From the NCBI RefSeq assembly GCF_018476525.1, contig NZ_JAHCST010000030.1, positions 1 to 64,000 on the forward strand: a stretch of 64,000 bases of DNA, read 5' to 3'. The stretch's first letter is position 1, and each line of letters opens with the position of its first letter. Below, piece after piece: positions 45,649 through 50,762 of this stretch. This DNA comes from Acrocarpospora catenulata. GTDB lineage: Bacteria; Actinomycetota; Actinomycetes; Streptosporangiales; Streptosporangiaceae. Position numbers and translations under genes: made by a program. The notes under the pieces are model-generated. The model saw only the letters and a program-made list of their open reading frames with translations. It was not told where the DNA came from and made no database searches.

Positions 45649-45767
45649 GAGGAACCCGACACCAGTGGTCACAACGGATCTATCACCATCGCGTATCGGC
45701 GTCTGACTGGGCGTGTAAGATCGTCGGCCCCGCACGATATCGTCAGCGTCGCACTTGAAGTCTGCGC

Positions 45768-45773
45768 TAGGCT
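45768..45773 (+). promoter_or_regulatory. -10 element of the leuS leader
   Basis: TAGGCT (TANNNT) lies six bases before ATG 45780. Transcription would then start at or next to the leader peptide's ATG, making it leaderless. No clear -35 box is seen. Confidence 0.45.
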
Positions 45774-45779
45774 TGCGCT

Positions 45780-45827
45780 ATGCGTGCCGAGACCCTGCTT
45801 CTTATTGGGCCGCATCGAGCAGACTGA
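45780..45827 (+). CDS. leuS leader peptide with three leucine codons
   Basis: ATG 45780 opens a 15-codon frame, MRAETLLLIGPHRAD, ending at TGA 45825-45827. CTG CTT CTT at codons 6-8 give three leucines in a row; CTT is a rare codon in such GC-rich genomes. The frame ends inside the loop of a 12-base-pair hairpin and precedes a U-tract terminator and leuS. This is the classic layout of ribosome-mediated attenuation, where slow leucine decoding lets transcription continue into leucyl-tRNA synthetase. There is no Shine-Dalgarno; the message is probably leaderless. Confidence 0.8.
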   Translation: MRAETLLLIGPHRAD

Positions 45828-45878
45828 TTGCAGCCTCGATGCGGCCGCCCCTCGTGCATGGTGCCGGGGGGTTTTCTT
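45808..45878 (+). terminator. leuS transcription attenuator
   Basis: Stem 1 is perfect: GGCCGCATCGAG (45808-45819) with CTCGATGCGGCC (45835-45846). It is followed by a second GC-rich hairpin with CCCC (45848-45851) and a run of six G (45866-45871), then TTTTCTT (45872-45878). A ribosome paused on the Leu codons at 45795-45803 would cover the 5' arm of stem 1 and change the downstream fold. The exact antiterminator pairing was not resolved by eye. Confidence 0.72.
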
Positions 45879-45911
45879 ATGGGCGGGTGTCGATAAATCA
45901 GGAGATGGACC

Positions 45912-50762
<4,851 letters not shown>

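Follow-up and report, generated by a model that had tools for sequence, protein, structure and literature searches.

A leucine-codon leader and terminator upstream of leuS in Acrocarpospora catenulata: a probable transcription attenuator with relatives in other actinobacteria

Candidate attenuators upstream of leuS were predicted in Streptomyces coelicolor and S. avermitilis by Seliverstov et al. in 2005 (PMC1262725), and in the available text of a 2021 paper the leader peptide LeuL2 (MRAVRLLLSEPR) is reported as leaderless from RNA-seq of S. lividans TK24 and the ilvL leader MRTRILVLGKRVG precedes ilvB in S. lividans (PMC8079986). The available text of the 2005 paper also relates that changes of candidate codons in the ilvB leader of S. 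coelicolor had no effect (PMC1262725), a report that weighs against codon sensing in that relative. The original prediction for the locus described here implied that a leaderless peptide attenuator of leuS would be new; as far as the accessible parts of these two papers extend, a leuS attenuator was already in print for Streptomyces (PMC1262725, PMC8079986).

The leader upstream of leuS and its conservation

The window is a stretch of 64,000 nucleotides of A. catenulata in which the leuS product matches TIGR00396 (leuS_bact) with 939.6 bits (cut-off 548.4). Direct reading confirms the arrangement first proposed for its upstream region (Table 1): a -10 box is separated by the six-base spacer TGCGCT from a 15-codon frame (ATG CGT GCC GAG ACC CTG CTT CTT ATT GGG CCG CAT CGA GCA GAC TGA) that contains CTG-CTT-CTT and ends inside a 12-bp hairpin, with its stop codon in the loop of this hairpin (P1), and a GC hairpin that begins one base past the end of P1 is followed by TTTTCTT before the GTG of leuS. 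Between the U-tract and the leuS start lie 33 nt with a clear Shine-Dalgarno sequence (AGGAG), the start is unpaired in the predicted fold, and the upstream neighbour of the leader is a divergent, minus-strand open reading frame. Two of the three codons of the Leu run had been called rare, and the counts bear this out: CTT is none of the 66 Leu codons of leuS in the window, 10 of 1956 (0.5%) in the first 2.4 kb of the leuS genes counted from Streptosporangiaceae and 4.8% in leuS of Arthrobacter and relatives. The single sequence gives weak results. Its fold differs only slightly from those of shuffled sequences (z -1.91, with 9 of 200 doing as well), and simple scans for promoters and terminators list neither this terminator nor any nearby sigma-70 consensus promoter; the case is carried by conservation, covariation and linkage.

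Table 1. Features of the leuS upstream region, with positions in the window.
Feature	Position	Strand	Basis
-10 box TAGGCT of leuS leader promoter	45768-45773	+	direct reading
Leader ORF MRAETLLLIGPHRAD and stop, 15 sense codons, presumed leaderless, ATG at 45780	45780-45827	+	sequence and conserved leaders
Regulatory codon run CTG CTT CTT (Leu-Leu-Leu)	45795-45803	+	sequence and comparison
Hairpin P1, perfect 12 bp, arms GGCCGCATCGAG (45808-45819) and CTCGATGCGGCC (45835-45846)	45808-45846	+	sequence, fold, covariation
Intrinsic terminator, 7-bp GC stem with arms CCCCTCG (45848-45854) and CGGGGGG (45865-45871), then TTTTCTT (45872-45878)	45848-45878	+	sequence, covariation
leuS, leucyl-tRNA synthetase, 817 aa, GTG start	45912-48365	+	ORF, TIGR00396

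Alignment of orthologous regions, the check proposed at the outset, found an ATG or GTG start, the Leu run, both hairpins and compensatory changes retained. Among 79 usable leuS loci (80 were taken, and L029 has no upstream DNA), 60 have a -10 box closely followed by a leader in which two or more Leu codons stand side by side, such as MRSATLLLSGPRRP (Nonomuraea), MSARLLLERPR (Actinomadura) and MRAILLLS (Arthrobacter). The remaining 19 comprise five decayed loci (L002, L003, L006, L033, L054), five with single or scattered Leu codons, and nine in which neither a leader nor a model match was found (L032, L034, L035, L037, L038, L042, L046, L053, L055). The short frames with single or scattered Leu codons (L056, L064, L070, L075, L079) were seen by eye and rejected by the ORF scan; those of L056 and L070, upstream of leuS, have one CTA each, and all five loci resemble the leaders in their arrangement of hairpin and terminator and match the model weakly to moderately.

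In an alignment of 27 leaders (30 rows minus L024, L028 and L030), 97.4% of cells in the two helices are paired, compared to 91.3% in shuffles, and seven pairs have changed on both sides. The covariation score is 0.243 versus 0.136 in shuffles, none of 500 of which scored as high, and sliding the partner by 1-3 columns lowers pairing to 40-55%. P1 has four of 12 pairs changed on both sides and 96.9% of cells paired; the terminator has three of eight alignment pairs changed on both sides and 98.1% of cells paired. The base of P1 (GCCGC/GCGGC, columns 30-34 with 68-72) is invariant, and the U-tract and GC stem are retained.

The -10 spacing extends to a larger set of 120 distinct leuS leaders (99 starting with ATG, 21 with GTG), in every one of which a TANNNT box ends 6 nt (100 leaders) or 7 nt (20 leaders) before the start codon. 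This is the spacing that leaderless transcripts would have, and leaderless transcription therefore looks general among leuS leaders, judging from sequence. Of the 115 leaders that have three or more successive Leu codons, 109 end the run with CTT. In the two Leu codons before the last, variation falls mostly on the third base (CTG/CTC/CTT, with few TTG). This set was partly chosen for Leu runs, so that the -10 spacing is independent evidence there and the run is not. The counts for the 120 leaders and for the spacings given below leave out five of the 73 loci assigned to leuS by tblastn (L083, L097, L163, L177 and L182), for which the read-out was off the leader start; leuS is close downstream in all five, and L163, L177 and L182 have Leu-bearing leaders after a -10 box.

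The spacings were counted in 117 of the 120 leaders (excluded were one row containing N and, for want of a placement, L170 and L201), taking P1 as the outermost helix of the minimum-energy fold between the Leu run and the terminator. The gap between the Leu run and P1 is 0-5 nt in 116 of the 117, and the terminator starts -3 to +2 nt from the end of P1, likewise in 116 of 117; the stop codon lies anywhere from 3 to 27 nt past the Leu run. Since the first two distances hardly change and the third varies widely, the feature that is kept seems to be the position of a ribosome waiting for leucine relative to P1, not the end of translation. What sequence comparison establishes is the open reading frame with its Leu run, the two hairpins, the distances between these parts and the linkage of the element to leuS.

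Two other observations were made in the window. A 21-base block (CACAACGGATCTATCACCATC, 45670-45690) upstream of the leader is conserved with at most five substitutions in 20 of 30 relatives tested, and in 12 of those 20 its distance to the leader start is exactly 110 nt, the same as in the window; it may be part of the divergent gene's promoter or the site of a regulator. Positions 8-120 match the actinobacterial sRNA Ms_IGR-7 (Rfam RF02469) with 52.4 bits (gathering threshold 45).

Distribution, second copy and loss

A covariance model built from the 27 leuS leaders only (R1) matches at least 137 of 296 genomes of the class, in 67 of 115 genera, whatever gene follows, and 19 of 198 genomes in an even draw from the phylum; the matches of this draw include leuS leaders outside the class (L224, L225). 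Among the 150 class-wide matches listed, at least 101 precede leuS, in 100 genomes (the window's directly, 27 by coordinate comparison by eye and 73 by tblastn), 27 precede a gene resembling citramalate synthase (cimA-like), 20 precede ilvB, one (L204) precedes leuA and one (L125) precedes a small protein with a weak ACT-domain match. Both figures are lower bounds: genome G018 was matched in the phylum draw and not in the class search, and the leuS leader L231 (G215) was missed. By eye, L231 has a P1 loop about 75 nt larger, with the P1 stem and terminator kept. R1 also recovers sequences on which it was not trained, for instance leaders of the Streptomyces type (about 43-63 bits); the family f18, presumably Streptomyces, mostly carries the published peptide MRAVRLLLSEPR, and two of the ilvB matches encode MRTRILVLGRRVG and MRTRILVLGKRVG, the latter being IlvL as given in the available text of PMC8079986. 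The element is found in Streptosporangiaceae, Thermomonosporaceae, Arthrobacter and relatives, Propionibacteriaceae and other families. The codon runs match the pathway of the downstream gene: LLL for leuS, ILV for ilvB, and LLII, LIII or III for nearly all cimA-like genes, the exception being one cimA-like leader with LLL (L113). The leader at L125 (G102:C6, minus strand) has an Ile run (MFTPRIII), a hairpin and a terminator, and the protein behind it matches PF13291 with E 0.0037, below the cut-off.

The genome of the window contains a second copy of the element (G000:C160:185778-185871, minus strand, R1 37.7 bits), in which a leader (MSYCLLIIGRRAG), a hairpin and a terminator precede a citramalate synthase-like protein. 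This leader is L112, placed at about 1782-1872 on the minus strand. The first 285 residues of the downstream protein have TIGR00977 citramalate synthase as their best match, at 364.9 bits; the cut-off of 450 is for the whole protein, and the fragment stays below it. An alignment of 23 leaders of this type (22 before cimA-like genes, plus L125) covaries, with six of 13 pairs changed on both sides, and a model built from these 23 (R2) matches 28 of 28 sampled genomes of the window's family, each match having been checked to lie before a cimA-like gene, with Leu-Leu-Ile-Ile or Ile-rich codon runs in all 28. R2 matches 188 of 296 genomes of the class, and some of these matches are leaders of ilvB or leuS. 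A literature search on citramalate synthase or cimA with a leader peptide, judged by title, found no such attenuator.

The leader has decayed in close relatives of the window. At nine of nine loci of the Microbispora/Planotetraspora group (five from Microbispora and Planotetraspora, four with nearly identical sequence from one further genus of the family), the ATG is replaced by ACG, CCG or TCG. These loci retain the -10 box and the core of the leader; by eye, one or two codons are left of the Leu run, and nothing of the U-tract. A terminator-like stem remains in the three Planotetraspora loci, and much less of it in Microbispora and the four other loci. On the leuS protein tree, which holds the five named loci and not the other four, one change suffices for the five (support 81/74, 84% of bootstrap trees). 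Joint decay is the expected behaviour of a functional unit. Since the element is absent before leuS in nine of 79 loci and decayed in five, control of leuS by it is, on the evidence of these sequences, dispensable.

Proposed mechanism and alternatives

The reading that best accounts for these results, with a probability of about 0.77, is that leuS is controlled by ribosome-mediated transcription attenuation, with charged tRNA-Leu as the signal. The prediction of a leaderless leader-peptide attenuator with Leu codons draws support from the conservation of the element, from pathway-matched codons elsewhere and from its joint decay in one clade. The leader very probably lets the cell raise leucyl-tRNA synthetase when charged leucine tRNA runs short. 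Transcription would begin at or beside the leader ATG, as the spacing of the -10 box implies, and a ribosome would initiate on the 5' AUG and make the 15-codon peptide. When Leu-tRNA is sufficient, the ribosome would clear CTG-CTT-CTT, finish the peptide and depart; P1 and then the adjoining terminator would form, and RNA polymerase would presumably halt near 45878. When Leu-tRNA is short, the ribosome would wait on the Leu run, chiefly at the rare CTT beside P1. Its leading edge would cover the base of P1, the terminator would be less likely to form in time, and leuS would be transcribed. Assuming that the ribosome covers 12 nt ahead of the first base of the A-site codon, one standing at the last Leu codon would extend over roughly the opening bases of P1 (GCCGC). 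In the favoured model the waiting ribosome would open the base of P1, and the strand freed in this way would delay the terminator. The leaderless start, the waiting of the ribosome and premature termination are the putative steps of this scheme.

The antitermination step of classical attenuation was sought by folding 54 leaders from three clades in four ribosome states (L024, L028, L030, L040, L057, L067 and L072 were left out of 61). The terminator is predicted in every ribosome state, with mean probabilities of 0.92-1.00 in the three clades; for single sequences in the free and stop states, values go down to 0.10. Hiding of the terminator's 5' arm shows no consistent increase in these leaders when the ribosome is at the last Leu codon compared to free RNA (0.35/0.37, 0.33/0.47 and 0.33/0.28), and is lower (0.17, 0.25 and 0.14) with P1 intact and the upstream leader masked. 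RNAalifold found no significant conserved 2:3 helix in the leuS leaders, for which 19 and 14 of 200 column shuffles were as good, or in the cimA-type leaders (36 of 200). The helix tested in Thermomonosporaceae, with 52 of 200 shuffles as good, is not clean, for it includes part of the terminator's 3' arm. Pairings proposed by eye, among them one in Nonomuraea between the terminator loop and the base of P1, lack conservation between species and were rejected. In these folding models the antitermination step is not supported, nor is any pairing that would prevent the terminator; a short-lived antiterminator would be compatible with them.

This outcome bears on the strongest rival, which we consider unlikely: the leader and terminator would be conserved, and the Leu codons would not be the sensor, read-through being set by an RNA-binding protein, by a ppGpp- or iNTP-dependent start or by pausing of the polymerase at P1, with the peptide serving only to keep ribosomes on the nascent RNA. 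That no antiterminator was found in the leuS or cimA-type leaders agrees with it, as does the invariance of the P1 base in 27 sequences, which goes beyond what pairing alone demands. In the available text of PMC1262725, so do the S. coelicolor ilvB codon mutations without effect and the protein proposed for the leuA LEU element. However, the codon run shifts with the downstream gene (LLL, LLII/LIII/III or ILV) while the RNA architecture stays constant, which stands against the ilvB mutant report on codon sensing, and loss of the start codon was accompanied by decay of the rest. A much less probable alternative has the ribosome act on translation of leuS or on RNA stability, with the hairpin and U-tract as a weak terminator or processing site. 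In its favour, the decayed group presumably still transcribes leuS from its -10 box despite a degraded terminator, and the terminator is a predicted one; but the aligned leaders keep the U-tract and GC stem, 33 nt with a clear Shine-Dalgarno sequence lie between the U-tract and the start of leuS, and this start is unpaired in the predicted fold. That a chance small ORF stands beside the terminator of an upstream transcript is hardly credible: the unremarkable single-sequence fold (z -1.91) and the failure of simple scans to list the terminator and promoter would fit, but the upstream gene is divergent, so that there is no upstream transcript to end, and conservation, covariation and class-wide linkage rule out a chance ORF. 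A T-box or other Rfam RNA was also rejected, as the leuS region has no match at the gathering threshold, and at E up to 5 gives only a chance match to a miRNA model (E 3.4).

One two-hairpin architecture might serve in actinobacteria as an interchangeable cassette that works without a classical antiterminator, by opening of the P1 base, with its codon run matched to the gene; this is a tentative proposal to which we give somewhat less than an even chance. The cassette would consist of a leaderless leader, a codon run, P1 within about 5 nt of it, a terminator abutting P1 and a stop codon free in position, with Leu runs for leuS, Ile/Leu runs for citramalate synthase and Ile-Leu-Val for ilvB. 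If the proposal is true, the citramalate synthase version is a new regulated target and is evidence that CimA-like genes serve isoleucine synthesis.

Comparison with known attenuators

Enterobacterial trp, leu and his attenuators contain a competing antiterminator. They have in common with the element described here a codon run, a terminator and a gene matched to the amino acid, and as in classical attenuation the regulatory codons here correspond to the amino acid of the downstream gene; the leader here differs in being presumed leaderless and in having only two hairpins, with no antiterminator found. The leuA LEU element likewise places a Leu run in a leader peptide ahead of a leucine gene, but it is described, in the available text of PMC1262725, as a pseudoknot in which the Leu run and the leuA Shine-Dalgarno sequence form the base stem, whereas here a terminator intervenes between leader and gene. 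The ilvB leader (ilvL) has the same order of leader, hairpin and terminator and is found by the leuS model, and differs by its ILV codons. Since the three leader types share an architecture and differ in codons, the question raised by the S. coelicolor ilvB mutants can be put directly to the test by swapping codon runs among the ilvB, leuS and cimA-like leaders.

The closest system is the Streptomyces leuS attenuator, in which, according to the accessible parts of its descriptions, leuS is preceded by a leader frame containing Leu codons (three of them in LeuL2), by hairpins and by a terminator rich in U. The window likewise has a short ORF with consecutive Leu codons and a predicted terminator between leader and leuS, and R1 recovers the exact published peptide. 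The peptide of the window is longer and runs into P1, with 15 codons and a stop codon in the P1 loop. An antiterminator is indicated in a figure of the 2005 paper (PMC1262725), and no conserved one was found here. The published attenuators are named for Streptomyces in the text available, and the element described here occurs in other actinobacterial families as well. Thus leuS attenuation, described for Streptomyces only in the papers found, is widespread in actinobacteria and probably old, and a covarying alignment and a searchable model are now given where Rfam had no match at the locus. Attenuation of leuS is not new in kind, and the copy in the window is a new, well-supported example of it; the cassette shared by leuS, ilvB and cimA-like genes is more interesting than the leader of the window itself.
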